Positions 21,849-59,470 of a stretch of DNA of 64,000 bases are shown here, piece by piece (position 1 is the first letter of the stretch; each line of letters begins with the position of its first letter). The notes beneath the pieces are model-generated. The model saw nothing but the letters and a program-made list of their open reading frames with translations, was not told the DNA's origin and did no database searches. The position numbers and the translations under genes were made by a program. The stretch covers positions 62,001 to 126,000 of the forward strand of contig DASXVU010000047.1 of the NCBI GenBank assembly GCA_036504055.1, read 5' to 3'. The stretch is from Methanomassiliicoccales archaeon. Its GTDB lineage: Archaea; Thermoplasmatota; Thermoplasmata; Methanomassiliicoccales; UBA472.

Positions 21849-23198
21849 TTACTCCAGTATCTCTTTCAGCGCCTTCTCGCACCGGTCGCCGCACTTCTTT
21901 GCGGCCTCGGGACTCCTGCCCTCGGAGAATATCCGGAAGATCGGCTCGGTTCCCGATGGCCGGATCAGGGTCCATCCCTCCCCGAAGTAGACCTTGACCC
22001 CGTCCGTGGTGTCGACCTTTTCCTTGGAGAAGGCCTCCACGACGAGCTTCAGAACCTCTGACTTTCTGACCTCGGGGCATTCCATCTTGCGCTTGTCCAG
22101 GTAGTATTCGGGGATGGTGGACAGAAGCTTGGACAGCGGTCCTTCCATGGCGACGATCTCCAGCATCTTGGCAGCCGTCATCCCTCCGTCCCGGCAATAC
22201 TGGTGCTCAGGGAAGATCAGGCCTCCGTTCTCCTCGCCGCCGAAGATGGCTCCGACCTCGATCATCTTCCTGGCCACGACCGGGGAACCGACGCGTGTGT
22301 ACACGACCTCTCCCCCTTCCGCCTTGACCACGTCCTCGACGCAGGAGGAAGAGCTTACCGGGGTGACAACTGTCCCGCCGCCGTTCTGCCTGACGATGTG
22401 GCGGGCGACGATGGCGAGGGACCGGTCCCCGAAGACGAAATTGCCCTTGTCATCGACGAATATGGTACGATCGGCATCACCGTCGTGAGCCAGGCCGAGA
22501 TCGGCACCGGTCGCCTTGACCGTGGCCATCAGGTCCTTCAGGTTATCTGCGGTTGGTTCGGAAGGATGCCCGGGGAACGTTCCCTGCGGGTTCGAGTTGA
22601 GCGAGATCACTCGCACTCCGAGGTCAGCCAACAGGTCCGGCGAGGTCGCGGTGGCGGCGCCGTTGGCGCAATCGAGGACCACGTTCATCTTGGCGGAGGC
22701 GATTGTGTTCACGTCCACATGCTGTTTGATGGCTGCGGAATATGTTCTGGCCGCCCCCTCGACCAGACCGATCGTCCCGACCGACTTCCAGTTCTTGTGA
22801 ACGGAGGACTTGTTGAAGTAGATCGCCTCGATCTTCTCCTCCTTCTCCCGGGGCATCTCGGTCCCGTCATAATCGATGCACTTGATCCCATTGAACTCCG
22901 GCGGGTTGTGCGAGGCTGTGATCATCACACCACCCTTGACGCCGGAATTCTTGACATAATACTGCAGCGCGGGAGTCGGAACCATTCCTATGTCGAGGAC
23001 ATTGGCCCCACTGGCCATGAGACCGGCGGCCACCGCGCTCTTGATCATGTCTGCGGAGGTGCGGCAGTCGGTGGCGATGGCCACTTTACCTCCCATGTGC
23101 GTGCCTATCGCGGCGCCCACTTCCAACGCGAACGATGCGTTCATTTCCTGATTGACCACGCCCCTGATACCGTTGGTCCCGAAGAGTCTAGCCGTCAT
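21849..23198 (-). CDS. phosphohexomutase (second copy; phosphomannomutase/phosphoglucosamine mutase)
   Basis: 449-residue alpha-D-phosphohexomutase: phosphoserine Ser96 in TASHNP, metal loop DGDADR with Asp239/241/243, sugar-specificity loop GEENGG at 321-326 and phosphate loop RPSGTEPIFRIF. The specificity loop differs from the GEPSG of the paralogue at 1614, so the two probably use different sugars (glucosamine, mannose, glucose or a pentose phosphate). It is 3 nt behind the DUF47 gene and may be the fifth gene of the ABC transporter operon, a physically tight but functionally unexplained link. Confidence 0.87.
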   Translation of the reverse strand: MTARLFGTNGIRGVVNQEMNASFALEVGAAIGTHMGGKVAIATDCRTSADMIKSAVAAGLMASGANVLDIGMVPTPALQYYVKNSGVKGGVMITASHNPPEFNGIKCIDYDGTEMPREKEEKIEAIYFNKSSVHKNWKSVGTIGLVEGAARTYSAAIKQHVDVNTIASAKMNVVLDCANGAATATSPDLLADLGVRVISLNSNPQGTFPGHPSEPTADNLKDLMATVKATGADLGLAHDGDADRTIFVDDKGNFVFGDRSLAIVARHIVRQNGGGTVVTPVSSSSCVEDVVKAEGGEVVYTRVGSPVVARKMIEVGAIFGGEENGGLIFPEHQYCRDGGMTAAKMLEIVAMEGPLSKLLSTIPEYYLDKRKMECPEVRKSEVLKLVVEAFSKEKVDTTDGVKVYFGEGWTLIRPSGTEPIFRIFSEGRSPEAAKKCGDRCEKALKEILE

Positions 23199-23201
23199 AG
23201 T

Positions 23202-23891
23202 TCACCTTGCCTTGTGGATTTGGGATATGACCAGGATATGGATAATGTCTGCGGAGTCCTTGCATGAATCAGAGGAGTTCTCGATCCCGTGCAGAAGATC
23301 CCTCATGAGGTAAATGGCGCGGGGGTCCAGCGCGGCGAAGAAGATCTCCTTCTTGGTGGAGAAGTACATCTCATCCAATTTGTGCTCCGAGATGCTGACG
23401 CTCCGGCCATAGTTTATCACCGCATCGTTGTTGACGCCGAGGGAATCGACACAGTTGCGCAGCTGTTTGGTGGCGAAATCCAGCTCCTTGGTCATCTCGG
23501 CATACTTCCTCCACATCGAAAGCGGCACGCTGACATTTGCCTCGATCACCAGCTGCAGGTTCATGCCCGCCTCTTTGGCCCAATCTGCCACGTTGTCCAT
23601 GTTCTGGGTCAGGTGCAGCAGGTCCTCGCGTTCCTTGGGCTCCATGTCCCCCTTGGAGAGCTCCTCGGATATCATCTCCTCCAACATATCCGCCTCCTTC
23701 TCCGAATATATCAATCGCTTTATGGCGTCCAGCGCCCTTTCCTTGTCGCTGTCGCATAGGGCAGCCAGCGCCCGATTGAGCTCGGACACCGTATCCCCGA
23801 TCTTCTGCGCATGATCCCGGACACCTTTCATGATGACCGACTCACGGCGTACCTTGAACCAGTCCAGTATTGTCCCTTTGTTGTCACTCAA
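23202..23891 (-). CDS. DUF47/PhoU-like protein
   Basis: 229-residue all-helical protein of the PhoU-like DUF47 family. Members usually accompany phosphate (PiT) transporters and are thought to regulate them. The helical core carries repeated acidic Glu/Asp positions (SEKEADMLEEMI, MDNVADWAKEA, SISEHKLDEMYF) that bind metal clusters in PhoU proteins. The start overlaps the end of the ABC ATPase gene by 8 nt, so it is coupled to an ABC importer rather than to a PiT carrier, which is unusual and hints at an oxyanion or phosphate-like substrate. That is inference. Confidence 0.8.
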   Translation of the reverse strand: MSDNKGTILDWFKVRRESVIMKGVRDHAQKIGDTVSELNRALAALCDSDKERALDAIKRLIYSEKEADMLEEMISEELSKGDMEPKEREDLLHLTQNMDNVADWAKEAGMNLQLVIEANVSVPLSMWRKYAEMTKELDFATKQLRNCVDSLGVNNDAVINYGRSVSISEHKLDEMYFSTKKEIFFAALDPRAIYLMRDLLHGIENSSDSCKDSADIIHILVISQIHKAR

Positions 23892-24969
23892 GTTTCACAG
23901 CCTCCGCAATTCCCTCGATCGGCCTGGGATAGACCACTGCCGCCTTCTTGTTGATCATAAGGTAAATCTCCTGACCTAAGTGATACAGGTTTCCATCCGA
24001 TGTCGGAACATCGAAATCCATCCTGTCTTGACTGTCTGCCATGGATTGAATGTGCCAGTAAGTTCCCATGTAGGTAATGGTGTTTATGGTCGCGTGCAAT
24101 CCGCTGGTAAAGGGGAAAACGAACTCCGGACGCACCGAGACGACCACCGGATCGCCTGGCCTCATGGTGGAGTTCAATACCTCCACCAGGGAATCGTCCC
24201 TGAGAGCTACCTTGGTAATGCCATCGTTCACGGATATTATCCAACCCTCCAGCAGGTTGGTCTCGCCGATGAAGTTGGCGGTGAATATCTTGTGCGGCTT
24301 GGAGTATAGCTGCTCCGGTGTGCCTATCTCCACCACCGATCCAGTTTTCATCAGGACGATCCGGTCGGAGACCGACATCGCCTCGTCCTGATCATGGGTG
24401 ACGTGCACGGTGGTTATTCCCAGTGATTTCACTAGGCGCCTCAATTCGTATCTGAGGTCAACGCGGACACGGGCATCCAGCGCTGAGAGGGGCTCATCCA
24501 GCAGGATCACCTTCGAACCGGTGGCCAGTGCCCGGGCCAGCGACGCCTTTTGCTGCTCTCCGCCGCACAGCTCGTTGGGGAACATGTCCATCTTTTCCAG
24601 CAGCTTGACCAGCTCCAGATACTTATGAGCGATGCCGTCCTGCTCTTCCACCTCCTTGCCCATCACCCGGGGGGAATATGACACATTGTCCTTGACGGTG
24701 AGATTGGGGAAGAGGGCGATGTTCTGGAACACATACCCGATGTCCCGGTCCTCGATGGGCACACCGTTCATGTCCTTGCCGCCGATTGTGACCGTCCCTT
24801 CGGTCGGGGTGATGATCCCAGCTATCATGCGAATGAGCGTGGTCTTACCGCATCCCGACGGACCGAGTATGGTGATGTATTCTCCCTCCTCGATCCGGAG
24901 GTCCACACGGTCCACCGCCGCCAGCTTTCCGTAGTATTTGGAAACGCCCTTCAATTCGATGGCCGGCAT
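23884..24969 (-). CDS. ABC importer ATPase with regulatory C-terminal domain (second of pair)
   Basis: ATP-hydrolysing subunit of a binding-protein-dependent importer, 361 residues. Walker A GPSGCGKT at 36-43, Q-loop VFQN, Walker B VILLDEPLSALD, D-loop and switch His in HVTHDQDEAM. The signature motif is LCGGEQQ rather than LSGGQQ. A TOBE-like domain follows residue 240. The ATG at 24969 overlaps the stop of the preceding ATPase (TAATG); the frame reaching 25086 is a shadow. Likely heterodimerises with the adjacent ATPase under the fused permease. Substrate unknown. Confidence 0.9.
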   Translation of the reverse strand: MPAIELKGVSKYYGKLAAVDRVDLRIEEGEYITILGPSGCGKTTLIRMIAGIITPTEGTVTIGGKDMNGVPIEDRDIGYVFQNIALFPNLTVKDNVSYSPRVMGKEVEEQDGIAHKYLELVKLLEKMDMFPNELCGGEQQKASLARALATGSKVILLDEPLSALDARVRVDLRYELRRLVKSLGITTVHVTHDQDEAMSVSDRIVLMKTGSVVEIGTPEQLYSKPHKIFTANFIGETNLLEGWIISVNDGITKVALRDDSLVEVLNSTMRPGDPVVVSVRPEFVFPFTSGLHATINTITYMGTYWHIQSMADSQDRMDFDVPTSDGNLYHLGQEIYLMINKKAAVVYPRPIEGIAEAVKLE

Positions 24970-26057
24970 TATTCCACCTTCAGCTCCTCTTCGAGTCCCT
25001 TTTCCGGCATCTTGAAGACCGTCGCCTTGTCCCAGTTCCATCTGATGTTGACCTTGTCCCCCTTCGATATCTTGCCCATGCGCCATGAAGGGACCTTGGC
25101 TGAGAAACGACCGATACCTTCCACGGCTACGTCGACGTGCAGGTTGCGGCCTTCGAACAGGATGCGCTCTATGGTGCCGGAGAAGAACCCTGGCTGATCC
25201 CGGTACACCTCGGTATTGCCCACCTTGATACCGACCACCGCCTCCTCATCGATATCGATGTTGGAAGGTCTTGCCTCAACCTCAAAACGACCGTTCGTCA
25301 CCCTTGTCGATTCCCTTTTCTGTACCACTCTTCCAACGAAGAAATTGGATTGACCTACGAAGTTGGCGATGAACGGGGAGTTCGGGTGATCGAACACTTC
25401 TGCCGGTGTTCCGATCTGTAGTATCCTCCCGTCCCTAATCACCGCTATGCGGTCCGCCATCACCATTGCCTCGTCCTGATCGTGCGTGACGTGCACGGTG
25501 GTGATCCCTAGGGCCTTGGCCAGGGAACGGAGCTCGTATCTCAGGCTTATCCTCAACCTGGCATCGAGCGCCCTTAGTGGCTCATCCAGCAACAGGATGT
25601 CCGCGCCAGATGCCATCGCCCTTGCCAAAGCGGTACGCTGCTGCATGCCCCCGCTGAGCTCCCTCGGATAGGCGTCCGCCCGGGTGGTGAGCCGGACCAT
25701 GTCCAGCATGTCGGATAGGGTCCTGACCTTCTCCTCCTCCGTTTCCCTATTTATCTCCGGGCCGAACAGTATGTTCTCCGCCACCGTGAGCTGCGGGAAC
25801 AATGAATAGGTCTGTGACAGCAGAACGGCCTTCCTGTCCTCTGGTTCCACCTTGCCCATGTCCTTCCCGTCGAACTTGACGCTCCCGGAATCTGGTTTGA
25901 TGAGCCCGGCAAGCACCCGCAACGTGGTGGTCTTTCCCGCCCCGGTCGGCCCCAGGAGACACAGGTACTCGCCGTTCTTCACCTCCAGGTCCAGGCCATC
26001 GGCCGCCTTGATCGAGCCGTACGATTTCTTGATGGCTTTCAGTTCGATGGACGGCAT
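24969..26057 (-). CDS. ABC importer ATPase with TOBE-like domain (first of pair)
   Basis: 362-residue importer ATPase. Walker A GPTGAGKT at 36-43, signature LSGGMQQR, Walker B ILLLDEPLRALD, switch HVTHDQDEAM; C-terminal OB/TOBE part with a terminal acidic tail. Overlaps the permease stop by 1 nt (TGATG) and the next ATPase by 1 nt. Relatives pair with iron, sulfate, thiamine, tungstate or polyamine permeases. Having two different ATPase genes for one double permease suggests a heterodimeric motor. No substrate-binding protein gene lies in the cluster. Confidence 0.9.
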   Translation of the reverse strand: MPSIELKAIKKSYGSIKAADGLDLEVKNGEYLCLLGPTGAGKTTTLRVLAGLIKPDSGSVKFDGKDMGKVEPEDRKAVLLSQTYSLFPQLTVAENILFGPEINRETEEEKVRTLSDMLDMVRLTTRADAYPRELSGGMQQRTALARAMASGADILLLDEPLRALDARLRISLRYELRSLAKALGITTVHVTHDQDEAMVMADRIAVIRDGRILQIGTPAEVFDHPNSPFIANFVGQSNFFVGRVVQKRESTRVTNGRFEVEARPSNIDIDEEAVVGIKVGNTEVYRDQPGFFSGTIERILFEGRNLHVDVAVEGIGRFSAKVPSWRMGKISKGDKVNIRWNWDKATVFKMPEKGLEEELKVE

Positions 26058-27688
26058 CAGCTCGCCTCCGTCTTCCTGCGGGTGATGTAGCGCAGGCCGA
26101 GCATGAATACGAAAGAGACCACTATGAGCACTATGCAGGCCAGACCAGCTGTGTAATAGGCATGTTGCTTACTGATAAGGGCGACGATATAGACCGGAGC
26201 CGTGTTCGCCGAAGCCACAACCGCCTGGGTCGCCCCGGTCTCGCCCAGGCTCCGGGTGAAGGCCATGATCGATCCGGCAAGTATGGATGCCTTGATCATC
26301 GGATACAGCACCCGGCGGAACGCCTGCACAGGCCTGGCGCCCAGGGTCCTGGCCGTCTCCTCGTAGGAAGGATCGACCTCCTCCACGGCACCGGCCACGT
26401 TCCGGACCACCAGCGGATAGGTGAAAGCCACATGGGCCAGGATGATCAACAGCACATCCACGGTGGGTATCAGGTTCTGGCCGGTCCAGAAGACGCCGAG
26501 AGAGTAACCAAGAGCGGCGGTGGGAACGATCAGCGGCACATTGACCAGCACGTCGAGGACCCCAGAGAACTTGGTGGTACGGTGTCTGGCGATGTACAGG
26601 GCAAGCGGCACTCCCAGGACGATGTCGATCAGAGTGACCACGCCGGCGATCACGAATGAATAGGCAAGACTGTCCCAGAACCGGGACCAGTCGGATGACG
26701 TGGGACTGGCCGTCGCAACATAGGAGAAGATGAAGAACGAAGGGATGAGAACGAGGATTATCAAGAATATCGTGGCCGAGCCGTCCTTGAGCTTCGGCAC
26801 GAAGCCTCGGGAGAGGATCCGTTCCCACTTTGGCCAGACCTTTCCCTTGGGAAGCTTGACCTTCATGACCGCCAGCTTCAAGATCACCAAGAGCGCCAAG
26901 GCGAAGATGATGAGCAGGATGCTGACGAACGCCAGCGGGGCGGTGAGGTCCGGGTGGGTAACCAGGAGAGGCTTCCAGGTCCCGATGATGGTAGGTCCGG
27001 TCTGGAACCCTTGGGAACTGGCCATGGTGGACAGCGCGATCATCGTTCCTCCGGTCTCGGAAAGGGAACGAGCGAAGCAGAGGATGATGCCGGTGACCAG
27101 GCCGGCGCGGAACAGGGGCAGGGTGATGGTGCGGGCGGCGGTGAGCTTGCTCGCACCCAAGGTCTGTCCAGCGGTCTCGTAGGTGGTATCGATCTGCTCC
27201 AGAATCGCTGCCAGCGAGCGGACCATGTACGGATACGAGAAGACGATGTGGAGAAGGATGATGAGCAACATGGGACTGGTGACCAGGCCCAGACCGGGCG
27301 AGCTCAGGCTTGCCGGAGTGACCGCCCAAAAGATCGCGGCCGAAAAACCCAACGCTGCCGTCGGCACCGCCAAAGGCATATCGATCAGGGTGTCCAGCAA
27401 TTGTTTCCCGCGGAACTTCTTCCTCACCAGTATCCAGGCCATCGGCAGCCCCACGAGGAAATCGATAAGCGTGACGATGGCGGCGATCTCGAAGGAGGCC
27501 AGGATGGCGTTGATGATGAGGGTCATCATCGCCGGATCGTTCAATACGTGCGTCTGGATATCTCCCCAGTTGGTGAAGGCATAGGATAGGATCCAGACCG
27601 TAGGGAGTATCACGAAGACGAGGAAAAAGACGATAATGAAACCGGTCCAGCCCTTGCGGAAGCGCCTGCCACTTACTAGATCGACCAA
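26057..27688 (-). CDS. ABC importer permease, two fused membrane domains (FbpB-like)
   Basis: 543 residues with two BPD-type permease halves in tandem, about 12 membrane segments. Each half ends in a cytoplasmic EAA coupling loop: EQIDTTYETAGQTLGASKLTA near 160-180 and EEVDPSYEETARTLGARPVQA near 440-460. Fused permeases of this kind serve Fe3+, thiamine and related small-ligand importers. First gene of the cluster: a TATA box ggtatatat at about 27748-27757 lies 60 nt upstream of the TTG at 27688, so a short leader is expected. No binding protein is encoded in the neighbourhood. Confidence 0.9.
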   Translation of the reverse strand: MVDLVSGRRFRKGWTGFIIVFFLVFVILPTVWILSYAFTNWGDIQTHVLNDPAMMTLIINAILASFEIAAIVTLIDFLVGLPMAWILVRKKFRGKQLLDTLIDMPLAVPTAALGFSAAIFWAVTPASLSSPGLGLVTSPMLLIILLHIVFSYPYMVRSLAAILEQIDTTYETAGQTLGASKLTAARTITLPLFRAGLVTGIILCFARSLSETGGTMIALSTMASSQGFQTGPTIIGTWKPLLVTHPDLTAPLAFVSILLIIFALALLVILKLAVMKVKLPKGKVWPKWERILSRGFVPKLKDGSATIFLIILVLIPSFFIFSYVATASPTSSDWSRFWDSLAYSFVIAGVVTLIDIVLGVPLALYIARHRTTKFSGVLDVLVNVPLIVPTAALGYSLGVFWTGQNLIPTVDVLLIILAHVAFTYPLVVRNVAGAVEEVDPSYEETARTLGARPVQAFRRVLYPMIKASILAGSIMAFTRSLGETGATQAVVASANTAPVYIVALISKQHAYYTAGLACIVLIVVSFVFMLGLRYITRRKTEAS

Positions 27689-27815: not shown

Positions 27816-28781
27816 TCACTTGTTGCCCAGTATGACGTCGATGGCGCCTGGGTCCTTTTCAACCACAAACCCTGGCCCAATGAGCGAGTTGGTCACAACG
27901 GCTCCGGGGCGCACGGTCGCTCCCCGCATGAGCACGCTATTGGATACCACGGCGCCAGCCCCGATGGTCACGTCCTTCTCGGCAAAGACATAGGGCCCTA
28001 CCGAACACGAGTCCAGCTTGGCGCCGGCCAGGTTCAGCGGTTCCACCAGCTTGACGTTGCCGTTTAGGAAGGGGGGCTGATCATTCTTTGGCCTGAGGTC
28101 CATCAATGTCCTCTGGGCCTTCAGGTAGCTTTCCCTGGTCCCGCAGTCCACCCAGTAGCCTCCGTACTGGTAGCCATATAGACCTTGATCGAGCACCTTC
28201 GGGAACACTTCCTTCTCGATCGATACGGATCCCTTGCCGATGTTGTCCAACATGTCCGGCTCGAAGACGTACACACCGGCATTGATCATGTTCGAGACGG
28301 CCTCTGCCAGGGACGGCTTCTCCTGGAAGATCGTGATCCGGTTGTCCTGGTCCAGTCCGACCACTCCGAAAGCGGTCGGGTTCTCCACCTGCCAGAGCGA
28401 GATGGTCCCGATCCCGCCCTTCTCCCGGTGATACTTCACCATGGAGTCGATGTCGATGGAGGTGAGCACGTCTCCGTTGATGACGATGAACGTGTCATCC
28501 AGGTGCTCTTCCACGTTCTTGACCGCCCCTCCAGTTCCCAGGGGTGTCGTCTCGTTGACCAGGATGATCTTCCTGCCGCAGTCGTTGACCCGGAAGTATT
28601 CCTCCAGGACGTCCTTCATGTAGCTTACTGCCAGCACGACCGTGTCGACGCGGGGCGGCAATGAATCGATGATATGCATGACGAGCGGCTTTCCCACCAA
28701 AGGCACCAGGGGCTTGGGTGTTTTGTAAGTGATAGGTCTGAGCCGTGTTCCAAGACCGCCAGCGAGAATTACTGCCTTCAT
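27816..28781 (-). CDS. sugar-1-phosphate nucleotidylyltransferase with beta-helix tail
   Basis: Nucleotidyltransferase of the GMP-mannose/glucose-1-P thymidylyl type. N-terminal AVILAGGLGTRLRPIT with KPLVPLVGKP, metal Asp in INGDVL, substrate loops FQEKPS and GVYVFEP; 321 residues. The C-terminal 80 residues are hexapeptide-repeat beta-helix without the acetyltransferase block of the 2915 gene, so this one is monofunctional. Mannose-1-P guanylyltransferase is the best guess but specificity is not readable. It could work with the phosphohexomutase at 21849. 127 nt upstream of the ABC permease, same strand. Confidence 0.87.
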   Translation of the reverse strand: MKAVILAGGLGTRLRPITYKTPKPLVPLVGKPLVMHIIDSLPPRVDTVVLAVSYMKDVLEEYFRVNDCGRKIILVNETTPLGTGGAVKNVEEHLDDTFIVINGDVLTSIDIDSMVKYHREKGGIGTISLWQVENPTAFGVVGLDQDNRITIFQEKPSLAEAVSNMINAGVYVFEPDMLDNIGKGSVSIEKEVFPKVLDQGLYGYQYGGYWVDCGTRESYLKAQRTLMDLRPKNDQPPFLNGNVKLVEPLNLAGAKLDSCSVGPYVFAEKDVTIGAGAVVSNSVLMRGATVRPGAVVTNSLIGPGFVVEKDPGAIDVILGNK

Positions 28782-51754: not shown

Positions 51755-52696
51755 TCAATCCAGCACTTTATCATAGACGCTCTGGACCTTATCGCAGATG
51801 ACCTTCGGGGAATGATGGTCAGCCACATATTTACGCCCCAGTGCGCCGAGCTTCATGGTCAAGTTCATGTCGCTGACCAATCGGCTTACCTCCTCTTTGA
51901 GCGATGCTTTACCGTATTCGATCGCCCGCACTGGACACTCCGGATAATAGGAACGGAATTCTCGGTCGAAGGTCGACACTACCGCCCTGCCCCTTACCAT
52001 TGCCTCCAGCGAGACCATTCCGATGATGCTGGGAAGATCTTCGCTCGTTGGCAGTACCTGGTCGATGAGAATCTGTGCACTGGCAATTCTCTTCAGGACC
52101 TCTTCGTGCGGTTGGTTCTCCACCAATTCGAACTTGAAGTTCAGCCCCTCCATGATCAACTCATCCATTGCCTCCTTGATGATCTCAGTGCCCTTTAGCA
52201 GAGGATTGTTGGACACATGGACCACCTTCGGTATCGTTCCCGTGTCGAAAAGGCACTCTGGAACCATCTCGATCGGATTCGGGATGAATGAAGCATCCGC
52301 ATGCCACCTTAGGAGGTCTGGCCTGGAAACGATCTTCGCCCTCGCGATGGAACGGTATGCCATACCGTAGCCCATTCGCGTCTCGCTTCCGTGATAATGA
52401 ACGACGATCGGTTTTCTATGGACAAATCTCATAGCCAGAACGTCGAAACGCTTTCTGTTCAGACCACCATGTACATGGACCAGATCGAAATCCCTGCAGA
52501 CCCTTGACACTTTCCTCATGGTGGCGATATCATGGAATATCCCCGCCCCGCCATAGTACAGCTCCATATCGTGCGGGAAGTTGTACGGGTTCCTGTGTGT
52601 CTCTAGCACCTTAGACACTTGTCCTGAACTGGTTTGACATTTTGCCAGGATTGCGGGAACGCCTGCCAGGTTTTCAACATGAAGTATCTTCAACAC
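51755..52696 (-). CDS. GT4-like glycosyltransferase
   Basis: 313 residues. GT-B-like: ILHVENLAGVPAIL, VHVHGGLNRKRFDV, VVHYHGSETRMGYG, FIPNPIEMVPE, and the donor-binding LPSIIGMVSLEAMVRGRAVVST. Cytosolic. Stand-alone on the minus strand, at the left edge of the AT-richer segment that holds the flippase. The 371 bp upstream carries its promoter. Confidence 0.8.
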   Translation of the reverse strand: MLKILHVENLAGVPAILAKCQTSSGQVSKVLETHRNPYNFPHDMELYYGGAGIFHDIATMRKVSRVCRDFDLVHVHGGLNRKRFDVLAMRFVHRKPIVVHYHGSETRMGYGMAYRSIARAKIVSRPDLLRWHADASFIPNPIEMVPECLFDTGTIPKVVHVSNNPLLKGTEIIKEAMDELIMEGLNFKFELVENQPHEEVLKRIASAQILIDQVLPTSEDLPSIIGMVSLEAMVRGRAVVSTFDREFRSYYPECPVRAIEYGKASLKEEVSRLVSDMNLTMKLGALGRKYVADHHSPKVICDKVQSVYDKVLD

Positions 52697-53088
52697 AACG
52701 ACCCCTTAAACCACATGCCCTATCAGGACAACCGTTGATAGATTGGCATTCCACACAAGAATCCCCATTGCATTCTAGATGAAAATTCTTTACAGGATCT
52801 CGTATCGGAATTCAACCGTTATTATCCTAATCCAAATCAGATGTTGGGAAGGACTCTATTTTGAGGGATCAAAGCGAACTCCCGAATCATTCCCGATGGA
52901 TCCAGCGGTTTTGGGTTCTATGCCCATGTCTGTGATTCCATTTCATTCCTCGTGATTGTTTGTCCGATCCCATAGAGTGAGTGAAAAGGAAATATATTGT
53001 CACATTGGTTAAGCATGGGAATATTATCATATTATTGGGATGGGACATCCATTACGGCTCAGATTAGATGGATTGTAGATTGGGGTGT
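52697..53088. other. 392-bp AT-rich intergenic region between divergent glycosyltransferases
   Basis: No gene. AT-rich on the right with TATA-like aaatatatt at about 52990-52998 and atattatcatatt near 53022. Marks the start of the low-GC segment. Confidence 0.4.
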
Positions 53089-54048
53089 ATGATGCTAAAT
53101 GATCCGACATTATCGATTGGAATTGTCACTTATAACGGGCAATTCCTGCTCAAGCAGGTCTTAGAAACCGCTGCCGAGGAAATCGCTGACAAGAATGTGG
53201 AACTGATAATTTCTGACAATGCTTCTACCGATGACACTCAAAATATAATTAATGATTTTAAATTAAAACATCCAAACATAGTTTACGTCAGGAACTCGGA
53301 AAACATCGGGTTCGACGCGAATGTGGACCAAGTGGTGAGATTGTCAAAAGGACAGTTCGTTTGGCTTATGAGCGATGACGATTTCATAAGGAAGGGTGGA
53401 ATAGACAAGGTTCTCGAGGTGATCGGTCAACATCCAGATCTGTGCTATGTTTTTGTGAACTACACCAACCCCCTTCCGCTTAAGGTCCAAAAGGATACGA
53501 TATGCTTGGATTGGGCCCAATTCCTTCATGACGTAAATTTCAAGAACGGGCTTATTTCCAGCAATGTGGTCAACAGAAGACTTTGGTCAGAATTGAACAT
53601 GATGCAATACAATCACTGTGCTTGGATACATCTTGCGTACGCTTTGCAGGCACTTGCCCCTCGACACGATAGAAAGGGCTACATCATAGTCGAGGAATTT
53701 GTTAAGCAAGACGGCATCCAAAGATGGGGGGAACCAGGCGCCTTCATAGATCTGAATTTGAAGCTCCTTAGGCTGTTGAAGGAGATCGATGATTTGGGGT
53801 ATGACAAAACTTTGGGCTTCAGAACGAAGATCAAACAAATGGCCAATGATTTTCAGAAAGGATACCGGCGCGATATCCCATGGGCAAAAAACAAGGGAAT
53901 GAAAAATTGTATGGGCCGGATCGGTCCGATGAAAGAATTCTTTGGATCGTTTCCAAATTTCTGGTTGGTGGATGTTCCTATGTTGCTGACCCCCAATATC
54001 ATATATCGAATCGGGTTTGAGGTCGTGCATAAAATACAGAATAAATAA
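53089..54048 (+). CDS. GT2 glycosyltransferase, tandem copy 1
   Basis: About 320 residues. SIGIVTYNGQFLLKQVL, ISDNASTDDTQNI, NIGFDANVDQVV and MSDDDFI form a GT-A donor domain. The body (VNRRLWSELNMMQYNHCAWIHLAYALQAL) and end (GSFPNFWLVDVPMLL) are closely matched in the next gene. Start ATG at 53089 follows GGGGTGT; a longer frame opens at 53068. AT-rich codon use, unlike flanking genes. Acceptor unknown. Confidence 0.85.
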   Translation: MMLNDPTLSIGIVTYNGQFLLKQVLETAAEEIADKNVELIISDNASTDDTQNIINDFKLKHPNIVYVRNSENIGFDANVDQVVRLSKGQFVWLMSDDDFIRKGGIDKVLEVIGQHPDLCYVFVNYTNPLPLKVQKDTICLDWAQFLHDVNFKNGLISSNVVNRRLWSELNMMQYNHCAWIHLAYALQALAPRHDRKGYIIVEEFVKQDGIQRWGEPGAFIDLNLKLLRLLKEIDDLGYDKTLGFRTKIKQMANDFQKGYRRDIPWAKNKGMKNCMGRIGPMKEFFGSFPNFWLVDVPMLLTPNIIYRIGFEVVHKIQNK

Positions 54049-54330
54049 ATATAAATATTAATAGTAAATATTAATCATTTATCGAGCATCCAGATTTTTC
54101 TGCTCGAGATACTTCCTCTCCCCTGATCGATTACGGTGAAAATGCCTATAGAAATGGTCATTCCTTTTTGGATCATCATCGGAAGTATGTCAATCGAGAG
54201 CATCCATCGGACATAATACCGGAGAAGACATTATATGAAAAGAAATAAATCAAGAGCCATTGTAGTATCCTGAATTGAACATTGATAAGAGAAAGAACAG
54301 ATAATCGCTTCGATTGGCTGACACACTCAA

Positions 54331-55284
54331 ATGAAGCAAGATGATGATATTTATCTCACAATCGGTATTCCAACGTTCAATGGATCAAACCACCTAGCGC
54401 AGGTGCTAGACAGCGTCCTTTCGCAAAAGGTCTCTGACCGTATCGAGATCCTGATCTCAGACAATTCTTCGACTGATTCCACTCAAGACATTTCGAAGGA
54501 ATACCAACTCGAGCATCCGGAATTGATTTCCTACTATCGAAATGAACAGAACGTTGGGTTTGATGCAAATGTAGATCTGGTTGTGACCCGGGCTCGAGGG
54601 GCATTTGTATGGCTCCTATCGGACAACGATTTGCTGCTTGACGGCTCAATTGACAAGGTCTTGAACGTCATAATGGAATATCGAGAATCGATCCATTTGA
54701 TCTTTGTCAACTACGATTCGGTTTACAAGGTGAGCGATTCTCTGACAGGAAATACGGTCTGCGACGGTGATTCCTACTTCCGTCTGGTCAATTTCAAGAA
54801 TAGTCTCATCTCCAGCAATATTGTTTCCAAGAGCAGATGGTCTTCATTACATATGGAAAGATATCATGAAAGCAAATGGATTCATCTGGCATACTCAATG
54901 GAATCGATGGCCCCATCCAGTGGCGGGACGGGGTATATAATGAAGGATTTTCTCTTCAAAAAGATCGGCGCCTCCACCTGGGGAGACAGAGGAGAATTCA
55001 TCTATTATGGATTCAAGTACGTCGACATCTTCAAAGGAATGACGGCGCTGGGATACCACAAGAGTGTTAGTGATTCGGCCCTGCACGCGATCGAGGATCC
55101 CTATTACATGAACATTCCTCGTGCAAGAATGGTTGGTCTGAAAGTTGATGGGACTTTGCTGAGAGAATTCACTGGAAGATTTTCTAAGATTCCCCGATTC
55201 TGGCTCGTTGACATGCCGCTGTTGATCCTGCCGTTGAACTCCATCCGTATGGGTCAAACATTGTACCGGAAGATCTTCCGGTGA
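54331..55284 (+). CDS. GT2 glycosyltransferase, tandem copy 2
   Basis: 317 residues, a paralogue of the gene 280 bp upstream. Shares TIGIPTFNGSNHLAQVL, ISDNSSTDSTQD, NVGFDANVDLVV, LSDNDLL, the KWIHLAYSMESMAPSS block and the C-terminal WLVDMPLLILPLNS. Tandem duplication, with divergence, inside the low-GC segment. Probably adds related sugars to one glycan; substrates unknown. Confidence 0.85.
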   Translation: MKQDDDIYLTIGIPTFNGSNHLAQVLDSVLSQKVSDRIEILISDNSSTDSTQDISKEYQLEHPELISYYRNEQNVGFDANVDLVVTRARGAFVWLLSDNDLLLDGSIDKVLNVIMEYRESIHLIFVNYDSVYKVSDSLTGNTVCDGDSYFRLVNFKNSLISSNIVSKSRWSSLHMERYHESKWIHLAYSMESMAPSSGGTGYIMKDFLFKKIGASTWGDRGEFIYYGFKYVDIFKGMTALGYHKSVSDSALHAIEDPYYMNIPRARMVGLKVDGTLLREFTGRFSKIPRFWLVDMPLLILPLNSIRMGQTLYRKIFR

Positions 55285-55584
55285 TCCTTGACCTTCTGAT
55301 TAAGGACGCGCATTTCGGGGCGAATGGGTCAGAAAACCAACATATCGGCTTGATCTGCTCAAATTGTCATGCTCAAGCGCGTTTCTTGTTCTCCCGAGGA
55401 CCTCAAGTATTAATAAATAAACGATAGCTTCTGGGCTGACGATGAACCGATGATGAACGTCCGGGATGGATATTCATTTACATCATTCAGAAATGCCTGC
55501 AAGAACTATCAGATGCTCGGACGACAATGGCCAGAAATCTCATCGGCACATCATTATCATTGAAAGGGAACCTTGGTGATTAGA
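55285..55584. other. 300-bp intergenic region upstream of the flippase
   Basis: No gene seen. AT-rich stretch tattaataaataaa at about 55408-55421 is a strong TATA candidate far (about 160 nt) from the start, so a long leader or a closer, unrecognised promoter is implied. A GGTGAT site precedes the start of the next gene. Confidence 0.4.
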
Positions 55585-57093
55585 GTGCTTGCAAGGAAAT
55601 CTTTGCTGATCCTGATGGTAAGGCTTACATCCCAAGTGTTGTCCTTCATCGCTCTCCTTTTCATAACGAGATACCTCGGTACCGACGTTTATGGAAGCAT
55701 CACTTTTAGTTTTGCGATCGTTGCCACATTCAACTGCGTGTCGGACCTGGGGTTCAATGCCGCGAACACCAAACGCATTTCGGAAGGTAAGGATGTTGAT
55801 GATTGTTTCAGCACTTTTGCGGTGATCAAAGTTGTCATGACTGGGTTGATGGCATTATTGACCCTGGTTATAGTTCTCATTTATACCACATTTCTTGGGA
55901 GAGGTCTCTCGGATACCTCCGTTCAGCTCCTTTTGATCTTCATTGGTTATTATGTCCTCTATGACCTCGCTGGGATTGCCATATATACATTTGATGCAAG
56001 AATGGAGACGGCAAAATCCCAAATTATCCAGTTGATGGACCCGATAATTCGTGTTCCTATCGTCTTATTCGTTGCGCTGAATCGCATGAGCGTCTATTCT
56101 CTTGCCATTGCGTTTCTGATCGGGGCAGCCGCGGTATTTGTTGGTTCGGTCTTCTTGCTTCTTCGCTCTGGAATAAAATGGAAGAGGCCTACTCTCTTTC
56201 GCCAATACATCATCTTTGCAGCACCACTTGCGATAGCCTCGATTCTGTCAGTGGTGTGGGGCAATGTCGACAAGATCATACTAGGATTCTTCGGAACAAA
56301 GGTGGACCTGGCACTTTACAACTCGGGCCTCTCCCTAATGACCATTCTGACCAGTGTGGGTGCGGGAGTTGGAATAGTCACATTCCCTCTCTTTTCGAAG
56401 CATTTCTCTGAAGGTCGTTTGGACTTGATAAGGGAAAAGACTGCGGAAGCGGAGCGATACATCTCCATGATAGTCATGCCGCTGGCCACTGTGGTGATTG
56501 TCTTCCCATTTGCAGTTGCTTCGATATTGCTCGGAAGTAACTTCACCTTAGCCGGGGGCCCTCTGCAAATTGTCGTAATATCGACCACGTTGGGACTGAT
56601 GACCCAGGCATACACAAGCCAGCTGAGCGCCATCAATAGGAACGATATGTACCTGAGGATAACCATAATCAGCCTTGTGCTCAATTCAGTGCTGCTTGCC
56701 ATATTGGTGCCCAGTAGTATCTTAGGCGTCGGTCTATTCGGCCTATCATACATGGGGGCTGCCTATGCTGGCCTGGTGACAACGATAACGGTAGTGGCCT
56801 TCACTAGAGCTACAGTAAGGAGACTTACCCATACCCGTTCCAATCCCAGAATATTGATACACATCAGTGCGGCCATTCTATCTGGACTGCTCTTATGGTC
56901 GCTCAGCTATGCCGTCTTGCCGGTAAATCATATTCTTGAGCTCATAGTGTACAGCCTGTTGAGCTTCGGATTCTTTTTTGGATTTCTGGCAATATTCAAG
57001 GAATTCTCAAAGAAAGATCTGGATTACATCCTAGAGGTCATTAACCTCAAGAAGATGTGGAGATACATAATCACCGAGCTCCGTGGAAATTGA
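55585..57093 (+). CDS. polysaccharide flippase (Wzx/RfbX, MOP superfamily)
   Basis: About 502 residues, about 12-14 membrane helices. FITRYLGTDVYGSITFSFAIV, VWGNVDKIILGFFG, the basic loop KHFSEGRLDLIREKTAEAER, LNSVLLAILVPSS. Flips lipid-linked oligosaccharides across the membrane for surface glycan assembly. GTG at 55585 preceded by GGTGATTAGA; TTG at 55573 is a longer alternative. Adjacent to GT2 genes on both sides. Confidence 0.9.
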   Translation: MLARKSLLILMVRLTSQVLSFIALLFITRYLGTDVYGSITFSFAIVATFNCVSDLGFNAANTKRISEGKDVDDCFSTFAVIKVVMTGLMALLTLVIVLIYTTFLGRGLSDTSVQLLLIFIGYYVLYDLAGIAIYTFDARMETAKSQIIQLMDPIIRVPIVLFVALNRMSVYSLAIAFLIGAAAVFVGSVFLLLRSGIKWKRPTLFRQYIIFAAPLAIASILSVVWGNVDKIILGFFGTKVDLALYNSGLSLMTILTSVGAGVGIVTFPLFSKHFSEGRLDLIREKTAEAERYISMIVMPLATVVIVFPFAVASILLGSNFTLAGGPLQIVVISTTLGLMTQAYTSQLSAINRNDMYLRITIISLVLNSVLLAILVPSSILGVGLFGLSYMGAAYAGLVTTITVVAFTRATVRRLTHTRSNPRILIHISAAILSGLLLWSLSYAVLPVNHILELIVYSLLSFGFFFGFLAIFKEFSKKDLDYILEVINLKKMWRYIITELRGN

Positions 57094-57094
57094 T

Positions 57095-58063
57095 TCAATA
57101 GCATCGGTCACGGCGGTCAAGGACCTTTCTTAGATAACGCTCCGGGAACAATACGATGCTGACCAGGGTCAGGATATCTATTCTGGATGGTTTGGAGCTG
57201 ATCAATTGTAACTTGGCCGCCTTGAGAGAACGGTGCACTATGGCGGCTGACAGGATTCTTTCCATCCACCTTCTCGTCTGGTTCGACCTGACCCTTTTAA
57301 CCACCTTTCCGGAGTATTGTGGGTGGTCTTTCGTGCAATCGATCAAGAACGCTTCCTTCATCCGATACTGATCCTCATTAAGCTCCTTCGAGTCCTGACT
57401 GGCATGCATCCGGTACTCCATCAGCTCCTCATCCAGGAATACTACCGGACCTTGACCGGCCAATAGAACCAAGAAGACCGCGTCCGCCAACTGACCGTAT
57501 CGTTCTTCCAATCCAATTTTCTGAGGGAACCCGTTCCGATAAACGATCGAGGGAAAAGGTATGTAAGAACGGGAATAGAGCTCGGCCATCGAAGCGGAGT
57601 CCGGATATCTTTCGACCGATTTCCCGCCCTTTTCTCGGACATACCTGCCATCCCTGTTCCCTTCAGGACCGATGCGAAAACCGTTGCAGCCGGAGGCGAT
57701 GACCTCAGGGTTTCTCTCCATATAATCCACCTGGGTGGAAAGGAAATTGGGTAGAAGCCGGTCGTCGTCGTGCATCAGGTAGAAGAGGTCCTCTTGGGCA
57801 AGCTCAAACACCCGGGCATGGTTCCATATGGACGAATGATTATGGTCCGCCCCCACCCAGATGACACCTTTGTCCAGTTCAGCCGATATCGATTCTTTCA
57901 CACCCGGATCGCTCCCATTGTCCAGGACGACGATCCTGTCCGCTGGCCTTTGTTGTGCCAACACGGAATCGATCGCCTCCCGGAGGTACTGTGGCCGGTT
58001 GTATGATAGAACATAGACCCCTATCGATGTCAAAACATGCCCTTCCAGGTGGTGAGGATTCAT
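57095..58063 (-). CDS. GT2 family glycosyltransferase
   Basis: About 322 residues. GVYVLSYNRPQYLREAIDSVL, VLDNGSDPG, NHSSIWNHARVFELA, MHDDDRLLPNF and FPSIVYRNG follow the GT-A pattern with an Asp-Asp-Asp metal motif. Start ATG at 58063 selected; a longer frame to 58129 adds 22 residues. Convergent with the flippase, 1 nt between stop codons, and divergent from the UDP-sugar dehydrogenase. Confidence 0.85.
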   Translation of the reverse strand: MNPHHLEGHVLTSIGVYVLSYNRPQYLREAIDSVLAQQRPADRIVVLDNGSDPGVKESISAELDKGVIWVGADHNHSSIWNHARVFELAQEDLFYLMHDDDRLLPNFLSTQVDYMERNPEVIASGCNGFRIGPEGNRDGRYVREKGGKSVERYPDSASMAELYSRSYIPFPSIVYRNGFPQKIGLEERYGQLADAVFLVLLAGQGPVVFLDEELMEYRMHASQDSKELNEDQYRMKEAFLIDCTKDHPQYSGKVVKRVRSNQTRRWMERILSAAIVHRSLKAAKLQLISSKPSRIDILTLVSIVLFPERYLRKVLDRRDRCY

Positions 58064-58153
58064 GTGTTCGATTATCAACGTTGTGGTGAATGTAACACCA
58101 GGGACTGGTTTGGTCATTCTTATGTTCATGTCGGAATCCTTAAGTCAACAGTT

Positions 58154-59470
58154 ATGTTTCGTCCCCCGATGGTTAACGAAAAGGTCGCGGTGGTCGGAAT
58201 CGGGTATGTCGGTCTACCGCTGGCTTGTGTTCTGGCGGAGAGCGGTTTCAGGACGACCGGGATCGACGTTGACAAGGATCGCGTTGACCTGGTCAACTCC
58301 GGAAAATGCCCCATAGTGGGAGAGGAACCGGGATTGCCAGAACTCCTTAAGAAGGTCATCCTTGCCGGCAGTCTCAAAGCATCGTCGAAGCCCGAGGACC
58401 TGGCAGGGTGCGATGCGGTGTTCGTCTGCGTGGATACACCCATCGACAAGGACAAGAAACCAAGGCTGGAAATACTAAGGTCAGCCGTCACCACCGTTGG
58501 CCGTTCGATGAAGAAGGGATCGCTCATCTCCATTGAATCGACATTGCCCCCTGGAACGATGAAGAACGTCGTGATCCCCATCCTGGAGAAGGAATCCGGC
58601 CTGCGCGTCGGCAGGGATTTCCTCCTGTGCCACTGCCCCGAAAGGGTCATGCCGGGAAAGCTGCTAAACAACATGAGAAAGGTGGAGCGGGTCCTGGGCG
58701 GGTTTGATTCGGAATCGATCAAGAGAGGGGCTTACTTCTATTCCCGCATCGTCCAAGCGGAGATACACCCTTCAGACCTTCTATCGGCAGAGATCTCCAA
58801 GACCTCAGAGAATGCCTACCGTGACGTTCAGATCGCGTTCGCGAACGAAGTTGCTCTGCTCTGCGAGAAGCTTGGTGCGGATGCCTTCGAGGTACGCCGA
58901 TTGGTCAACACATGCCCTTCCCGGGATATGCACATCCCCGGTTCCGGGGTGGGCGGCCACTGCCTTCCAAAGGACTCCTGGCTGCTGCTGAGCGGAGCTC
59001 CTGACAACACTGCAAGGGTCATCCCTTATGCCAGGGAGGTCAACGAATCGATGCCGCACCACGTCGCCGAGCTGGCCAAAGGAGTGATGACCAAGGCGAA
59101 GGTCACCGCGGCCAGGCCGAGGGTGGCGATCATGGGGCTGGCATTCCTGCGTGACTCCGATGATGTGAGGGAATCTCCGGCGATCAAGATCATCGATGAC
59201 CTGGTGGGTGAGTTCGAGCTCATCGTGCATGACCCGTTCGTCAAGAACCCGTACAAGGTAGAAATGACCAGGGACCTGGAGGCGGCGCTGGGGGGAGCGG
59301 ACTGCGCTGTGTTCGTGACCGACCACACCGCCTATCGTACGCTCGATCTGCAAAAAGTGAAAAGGCTGATGCGCACTCCAGCCATCGTAGACGGCCGAAA
59401 CATTTTCAACCAGAACGATGCGCAGCGCAACGGCCTCGTCTACGCCGGGGTTGGAAAGGGTCCTATCTGA
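58154..59470 (+). CDS. UDP-N-acetyl-hexosamine 6-dehydrogenase (WbpA/WecC-like)
   Basis: NAD-dependent four-electron oxidation of UDP-GlcNAc or UDP-ManNAc C6 to the uronic acid. About 438 residues. Rossmann GIGYVGLPLACVLA, STLPPGT, catalytic Cys in GSGVGGHCLPKD, C-terminal NAD-binding/UDP domain. The surrounding genes favour WbpA (UDP-GlcNAc). Start could also be ATG at 58169. 3' end overlaps convergent threonine aldolase by 8 nt. Confidence 0.9.
   Translation: MFRPPMVNEKVAVVGIGYVGLPLACVLAESGFRTTGIDVDKDRVDLVNSGKCPIVGEEPGLPELLKKVILAGSLKASSKPEDLAGCDAVFVCVDTPIDKDKKPRLEILRSAVTTVGRSMKKGSLISIESTLPPGTMKNVVIPILEKESGLRVGRDFLLCHCPERVMPGKLLNNMRKVERVLGGFDSESIKRGAYFYSRIVQAEIHPSDLLSAEISKTSENAYRDVQIAFANEVALLCEKLGADAFEVRRLVNTCPSRDMHIPGSGVGGHCLPKDSWLLLSGAPDNTARVIPYAREVNESMPHHVAELAKGVMTKAKVTAARPRVAIMGLAFLRDSDDVRESPAIKIIDDLVGEFELIVHDPFVKNPYKVEMTRDLEAALGGADCAVFVTDHTAYRTLDLQKVKRLMRTPAIVDGRNIFNQNDAQRNGLVYAGVGKGPI

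Follow-up and report, generated by a model that had tools for sequence, protein, structure and literature searches.

The window analysed here is a stretch of 64,000 nucleotides from a Methanomassiliicoccales archaeon (contig DASXVU010000047.1, positions 62,001 to 126,000), whose genome amounts to 2.66 Mb in 49 contigs. At positions 21849–27688 of the window, five genes lie on the minus strand in close succession, with overlaps of 1, 1 and 8 nt followed by a gap of 3 nt. They encode, in this order, a fused double permease of 543 residues (26057–27688, starting with TTG), two ATP-binding cassette (ABC) ATPases, A (24969–26057) and B (23884–24969), a DUF47/PhoU_div protein (23202–23891, also with a TTG start) that is a probable regulator of the pump, and an archaeal phosphoglucosamine mutase, GlmM (21849–23198). 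The original prediction for this locus had described both the tight packing of the genes and the combination of a fused permease with two distinct ATPases and a DUF47 protein; the former is borne out by the coordinates and the latter by Pfam domains and motifs. The explanation tentatively preferred here, to which we give close to an even chance, is that the module is an order-conserved type I ABC importer of the oxyanion type, most likely for phosphate, with heterodimeric ATPases, gated by DUF47 and working without a binding protein.

Both ATPases contain the Pfam domains ABC_tran and TOBE_2 (ATPase B slightly below the TOBE_2 cut-off), and their nearest NCBIfam families, PhnT2 and PotA, both score below the cut-offs. 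ATPase A has the Walker A motif GPTGAGKT and the canonical signature LSGGM (followed by Q), and ATPase B has the Walker A motif GPSGCGKT and the altered signature LCGGE (also followed by Q). The start of ATPase B was set at the ATG at 24969, which fits the family, the mechanical open reading frame extending to 25086. The DUF47 protein passes PF01865 (77.8 bits, cut-off 24.4) and scores under the cut-off of TIGR00153, and the mutase has all four PGM_PMM domains and matches the archaeal GlmM model TIGR03990 with 577.5 bits (cut-off 439).

Family and fold of the permease

The permease matches BPD_transp_1 of Pfam in two stretches (100 bits) that are conserved across 20 aligned sequences, and EAA-type loops can be read by eye. 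Among the NCBIfam models, modB gives 187.2 bits against a cut-off of 182.6, but only as the sum over the two permease halves; WtpB (187 bits, cut-off 340) and CysT (179 bits, cut-off 246) are also scored over two halves. Models of the PstC/PstA type reach approximately 50 bits against a cut-off of 196, so that the permease is not of the Pst type, and ThiP reaches 46 bits, far below its cut-off; neither iron nor thiamine is favoured by these scores, and an importer of either was set aside as improbable on these grounds. In a tree whose references were the local ModB and Pst proteins only, the halves of the fused permeases form one group apart from ModB (96 by the Shimodaira–Hasegawa-like approximate likelihood ratio test, SH-aLRT) and from Pst (100), with the N halves and the C halves falling on either side of one branch of weaker support (44 and 80). 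The predicted fold, with a mean predicted local distance difference test (pLDDT) score of 76, finds its best whole-length match in the fused FbpB of Thermus (PDB 9j4r), followed by ModB. Among solved chains, those closest in sequence are 9j4r, with 91 bits in two stretches, 2onk_C, with 85 bits, also in two, and 3d31_C, a ModB chain, with 77.5 bits in one.

The permease is a type I ABC importer similar to ModB, WtpB and CysT, of ordinary fold and with an unusual complement of partners. The module resembles the Mod/Wtp/Cys importers in the best scores of each permease half, in the type I fold and in the SBP_bac_11 binding proteins of its outgroup relatives, and differs from them in its fused halves, its two unlike ATPases, its DUF47 protein, the absence of a linked or recognised binding protein in the order, and a permease that stays under the WtpB and CysT cut-offs and passes that of modB barely, by summing halves. 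The ferric importer FbpBC (9j4r) also has both membrane halves in one chain, but the module has two unlike ATPases and a DUF47 protein, and each of its halves is nearer to ModB by sequence. The earlier idea of an undescribed importer class was too strong, the module being a variant within the oxyanion-type ABC importers. In searches of the open-licence literature, no title or abstract opening describes it, and the excerpts of PMC4153887 and PMC10804542 make no mention of it.

Several permeases of sister lineages carry an extra domain behind their first transmembrane helix, where the first extracytoplasmic loop lies; the permease of the window has no such insert. "Sister" is a label of the analysis, given for a permease insert, a long permease frame or kinship within the same class, and several of these organisms are named Methanomassiliicoccales. 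The insert of L167 is fn3-like (Pfam fn3, 27.1 bits), and that of L083, L084, L087, L089 and L098 is a β-sandwich of approximately 120 residues, modelled in L098 with a pLDDT of 84 and 9 strands; a Foldseek search with a sister-lineage insert returned only generic β-sandwiches with marginal E-values and no specific match. The insert-bearing permeases, such as L167:8683-10977, L169:8980-11247 and L098:8787-10823, show two unrelated-looking kinds of insert, one fn3-like and the other a β-sandwich.

Asymmetry of the two ATPases

An ABC composite ATP site is built from the Walker motifs of one subunit and the signature of the other, and degenerate sites of this kind have usually been studied in exporters. 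The motifs of the ATPases were scored from the alignment columns of distinct sequences, after removal of two rows lacking a Walker A match and of those with fewer than 300 residues; types A and B were assigned by gene order in the outgroup loci, and the ATPase B sequence of the window is two codons short at its stop-distal end in the alignment, which leaves the motifs unaffected. The signature of ATPase A is SGG in 72 of 72 distinct sequences (no departures), and that of ATPase B is altered in 26 of 69. These departures are distributed over 17 of the 53 sequences of the order, 15 of them with LCGGE (the window included), 3 of 9 sister sequences and 6 of 7 outgroup sequences (AP replacing GG). 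The Walker A, Q-loop, catalytic Glu and H-loop His of ATPase B are intact in 69 of 69. In the outgroup, ATPase A has Glu in the Q-loop in 6 of 6 sequences, Asp in place of the catalytic Glu in 4 of 6, and an H-loop with Gln or Asn in 2 of 6.

Since a composite site pairs the Walker motifs of one subunit with the signature of the other, all of these departures fall in the site formed by the A Walker motifs and the B signature. Degenerate motifs are therefore confined to one composite site across the family, most strongly in the outgroup, and the window shows only the change from Ser to Cys. The altered signature on which the original prediction had remarked is real, and it proved to be wider than was noted, being one case of an asymmetric decay of a single composite site. 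A sequencing artefact was rejected, given that LCGGE occurs in 15 of the 53 distinct B ATPases of the order, and so was the notion that B is a dead subunit, in view of its canonical Walker A, Q-loop, catalytic Glu and H-loop. A and B would form a heterodimer, and both ATP sites of the window's pair could still hydrolyse ATP. In the ATPase tree the A proteins group across lineages (support 87, not starred) and the placement of the outgroup B proteins is not resolved. Like the heterodimeric exporters similar to BmrCD, the module has its degenerate residues restricted to one composite ATP site; unlike them, it is a type I importer in which the heterodimer is a matter of prediction, and in the window only the signature Ser has changed. 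The homologue of a Micrarchaeota locus (L124:9902-13100) has a single ATPase gene with a normal signature, a DUF47 gene and no binding protein, and is possibly a homodimeric version of the system.

Distribution of the module and of binding-protein genes

A search at 1e-20 of 61 genomes from the family and order recovered the fused permease in 51, and a profile run on the ten negative genomes together with two positive ones gave weak, partial or no matches in the ten. In one of these (G013, 63% complete) the absence is probably an assembly gap, because its DUF47-GlmM pair begins 680 bases from a contig end; the other nine look like true losses. Of 389 genomes sampled across the phylum, 42 have the permease: 34 belong to the order, 5 to the same class, and 3 lie elsewhere with weak partial matches. 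Permease, DUF47 and GlmM genes co-occur in 20 of 20 loci of relatives (stretches of approximately 20 kb), and the gene arrangement is not due to chance. The genome collection contains 62 Methanomassiliicoccales loci: 46 have all five genes in a run, a contig end truncates the run in 15, and one (L099) lacks GlmM. L082 and L166 are seemingly the same contig (3595 bases each), and the genomes behind L053 onward overlap with those behind L033–L052, so that counts of distinct sequences are safer than counts of loci.

GlmM is kept in all ten genomes without a permease match. Its position is unchanged in the permease-less loci L152–L158 and is elsewhere in L159 and L160: in G003, G007 and G026 it directly adjoins the sugar nucleotidyltransferase gene and in G036 it adjoins scpB, the four transporter genes being gone, and in G056 and G060 it sits at a different locus. 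Because GlmM persists where the module is lost, the unit consists of the permease, ATPases A and B and DUF47, and GlmM is a neighbour. The four-gene module (23202–27688) is gained and lost as a unit, and GlmM, which probably shares its transcript, was ruled out as a component of the system. The earlier suggestion that a phosphohexomutase was part of the importer does not hold, this protein being an archaeal GlmM that transporter-less genomes retain. In one genus DUF47-GlmM pairs have been retained after loss of the ABC genes (L155:9249-11369, L157:9170-11371 and L158:9091-11247). In G007, which has also lost the ABC genes, a Pit-like gene and a DUF47 gene (L152:12007-13733) lie approximately 5.5 kb from GlmM, beyond an agmatinase-mtnA block.

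Type I importers are generally thought to require a binding protein. No gene for one lies within or adjoining the five-gene span of the window. In Bathyarchaeota, Helarchaeota and Heimdallarchaeota, a protein of 373–416 residues of the SBP_bac_11/SBP_bac_8 type is encoded directly upstream of the homologous permease, and such an adjacent gene is found in 8 of 9 outgroup loci, the exception being the Micrarchaeota locus L124; the copy of the Bathyarchaeota locus L127 is partial and partly masked, and a Heimdallarchaeota copy lies at L128:8643-9893. A profile made from these outgroup proteins (A2) matched nothing beside the module in any of the 51 Methanomassiliicoccales loci whose sequence upstream of the permease is 3 kb or longer, and nothing in 61 genomes, other families of binding proteins not having been searched. 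The profile is sensitive within its own family, since leave-one-out profiles recover every member at 244.8 bits or more; this control was local, and no genome holding the protein was run alongside the search of the 61 genomes. The outgroup profile found no match in the PDB, and four outgroup binding proteins had no meaningful family in NCBIfam, the sole match, to a CoA-ligase model (28.8 bits against 525), being noise. The lack of a nearby binding protein, as originally predicted, is therefore confirmed as a property of the order and not of one genome. Genes for binding proteins do stand beside homologues in Bathyarchaeota and Asgard archaea, which supplies half of the counter-evidence named in the original prediction, an adjacent binding protein with a known ligand, and this pattern suggests that an ancestral binding protein was lost in the present lineage.

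As for the surroundings of the module in the window, upstream lie a sugar nucleotidyltransferase gene (27816–28781, minus strand; Pfam and NCBIfam) and scpB, scpA and smc, and downstream, on the opposite strand, agmatinase, aIF5A and Nop5 genes; the scp/smc and downstream names were given by eye. Farther away, window positions 51755–59470 include a stretch of lower GC content (44.7% at 52–56 kb, 55–58% elsewhere) with genes that by eye are glycosyltransferase-like, flippase-like and UDP-sugar dehydrogenase-like, and this is probably a surface-polysaccharide island.

Phosphate as the probable substrate

DUF47 is found in outgroup and order loci alike. A gene for a protein with PhoU and MazE/AbrB domains (AbrB-PhoU) immediately follows the module in L084, L089, L098 and the Bathyarchaeota locus L127, and homologues of this protein (276, 274 and 232 bits) adjoin pst genes in the window's genome (L161), L163 and L176. 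A pstS-pstCA-pstB-phoU operon adjoins the module of L084 back-to-back, in divergent orientation. Several genomes of the order also have PstC and PstA fused into a single polypeptide (L163:8799-10844, L176:6189-8483 and L084:6781-8718).

Over the 61 genomes, the module occurs in 51, PstC in 46, Pit in 30 and NptA in 5, and none lacks all four of Pst, Pit, NptA and the module. The module stands alone in five (G004, G030, G058, G034 and G040); G034 and G040 are not counted as Pst-free because they are incomplete bins holding PstS-like proteins. G004, G030 and G058 are 99% complete, two as single contigs, and lack any protein of PF12849 or PF13531. Module, Pst and Pit are all missing from three genomes, G036, G056 and G060, which all have NptA and make up three of the five NptA genomes; simple counting gives 2.8e-4 for this, a value whose true weight is less, two of the genomes being congeneric. 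According to the excerpted text of PMC9239043, marine Thaumarchaeota have a single phoU-linked locus at which Pst and Pit substitute for one another, which makes a replacement of carriers plausible here, and DUF47 is termed there a phosphate transport regulator. The original prediction had held the substrate to be unpredictable, but regulator context and phyletic pattern point to phosphate as the likeliest one. The module shares with Pst and PhoU a regulator of the PhoU family, the probable substrate and, in L084, a position next door, but its permease is not Pst-type, its paired ATPases are TOBE-tailed and there is no PstS. With the Pit-DUF47 pairs it has in common the family of the regulator, and in G007 such a pair lies near GlmM, the ABC genes being gone; the difference is that the module is an ABC pump and Pit a secondary carrier.

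In the mechanism proposed, one polypeptide would supply both membrane halves and A and B would pair as a heterodimer, in which the composite site of the B Walker motifs and the A signature would stay canonical and that of the A Walker motifs and the B signature would be under relaxed constraint. DUF47 would sense the phosphate state and gate the pump, a role also attributed to PhoU-type proteins with Pst and Pit. Phosphate would probably reach the permease straight from the cell surface, with low affinity, because the ancestral binding protein is gone in the lineage. The analysis shows the gene content and its conservation, that no binding protein is linked or recognised, the asymmetry of the motifs and, in relatives, the linkage to phosphate regulators, whereas the heterodimer, the substrate, the gating by DUF47 and transport without a binding protein are what we infer.

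Several observations weigh against a phosphate importer of this kind. The permease resembles Mod/Wtp/Cys (187 bits) and not PstC/PstA (approximately 50 bits), and is separate from Pst in the tree; both ATP sites of the window retain all core catalytic residues except for the signature Cys; three genomes of one genus (G033, G046 and G039, the last represented by L157) retain DUF47 and GlmM without permease and ATPases; and there is no AbrB-PhoU gene at L167–L170 or at the Heimdallarchaeota loci. As Pst and the module are both present in 39 of the 61 genomes, the module is usually not the sole phosphate route. The independent events are few, because two of the three module-only genomes share a family and G056 and G060 belong to one genus, and carriers of phosphonate, phosphite and other phosphate carriers lay outside the 61-genome search.

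The most serious alternative, unlikely but of real weight, is that the importer, for phosphate or another substrate, still uses a binding protein encoded elsewhere that is too diverged or of another family. Outside the Thermoplasmata, all homologous systems that have two ATPases also have a binding-protein gene next door, and type I importers in general are thought to depend on one; the A2 profile, however, matched none of the 61 genomes and G004, G030 and G058 hold no PF13531 or PF12849 protein, within the families that were searched. An importer of molybdate, tungstate or sulfate, with incidental DUF47 and PhoU links, is improbable: it would agree with the best family scores (modB, WtpB and CysT) and with the match of the outgroup binding proteins to SBP_bac_11, the family of ModA, but the window's genome encodes ModA and ModB separately, as a pair on a different contig, strong SBP_bac_11 matches (above 100 bits in 3 of 61 genomes) are far rarer in the order than the module, and regulators of the PhoU type accompany it in several lineages.

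Far less probable is a phosphate-sensing complex, with an ABC unit that informs DUF47 of external phosphate and carries little net flux. Signalling between Pst and PhoU is known in bacteria, and the coexistence of module and Pst and the persistence of DUF47 without the permease in three genomes would suit such a role, but it would leave G004, G030 and G058 without a recognised phosphate importer, and the Walker motifs of ATPase B are fully canonical. Hardly to be expected at all is an importer of iron(III), thiamine or polyamine: fused permeases do occur among such importers and the best whole-length fold match is the Thermus FbpB, but ThiP gives 46 bits against 187 for modB, and 9j4r needs two stretches for its 91 bits where the ModB chain 3d31 attains 77.5 over one.

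Returning to the DUF47-gated oxyanion importer, its strongest form would be a phosphate ABC importer wholly without a binding protein, in whose stead some sister lineages have the β-sandwich or fn3-like loop insert, an asymmetric heterodimer with one decaying site, and a fourth route beside Pst, Pit and NptA that is the only one in some methanogens; in this full form the proposal is doubtful. The module also supplies an importer series with a stepwise decay of the ATP site, from Ser to Cys here to the TG or AP signatures of relatives. If the proposal were true, it would explain the phosphate supply of several complete methanogen genomes without a recognised phosphate carrier, it would give DUF47 an ABC partner, and it would provide a type I importer that naturally lacks a recognised binding protein, and with it a direct test of whether such importers can do without one.

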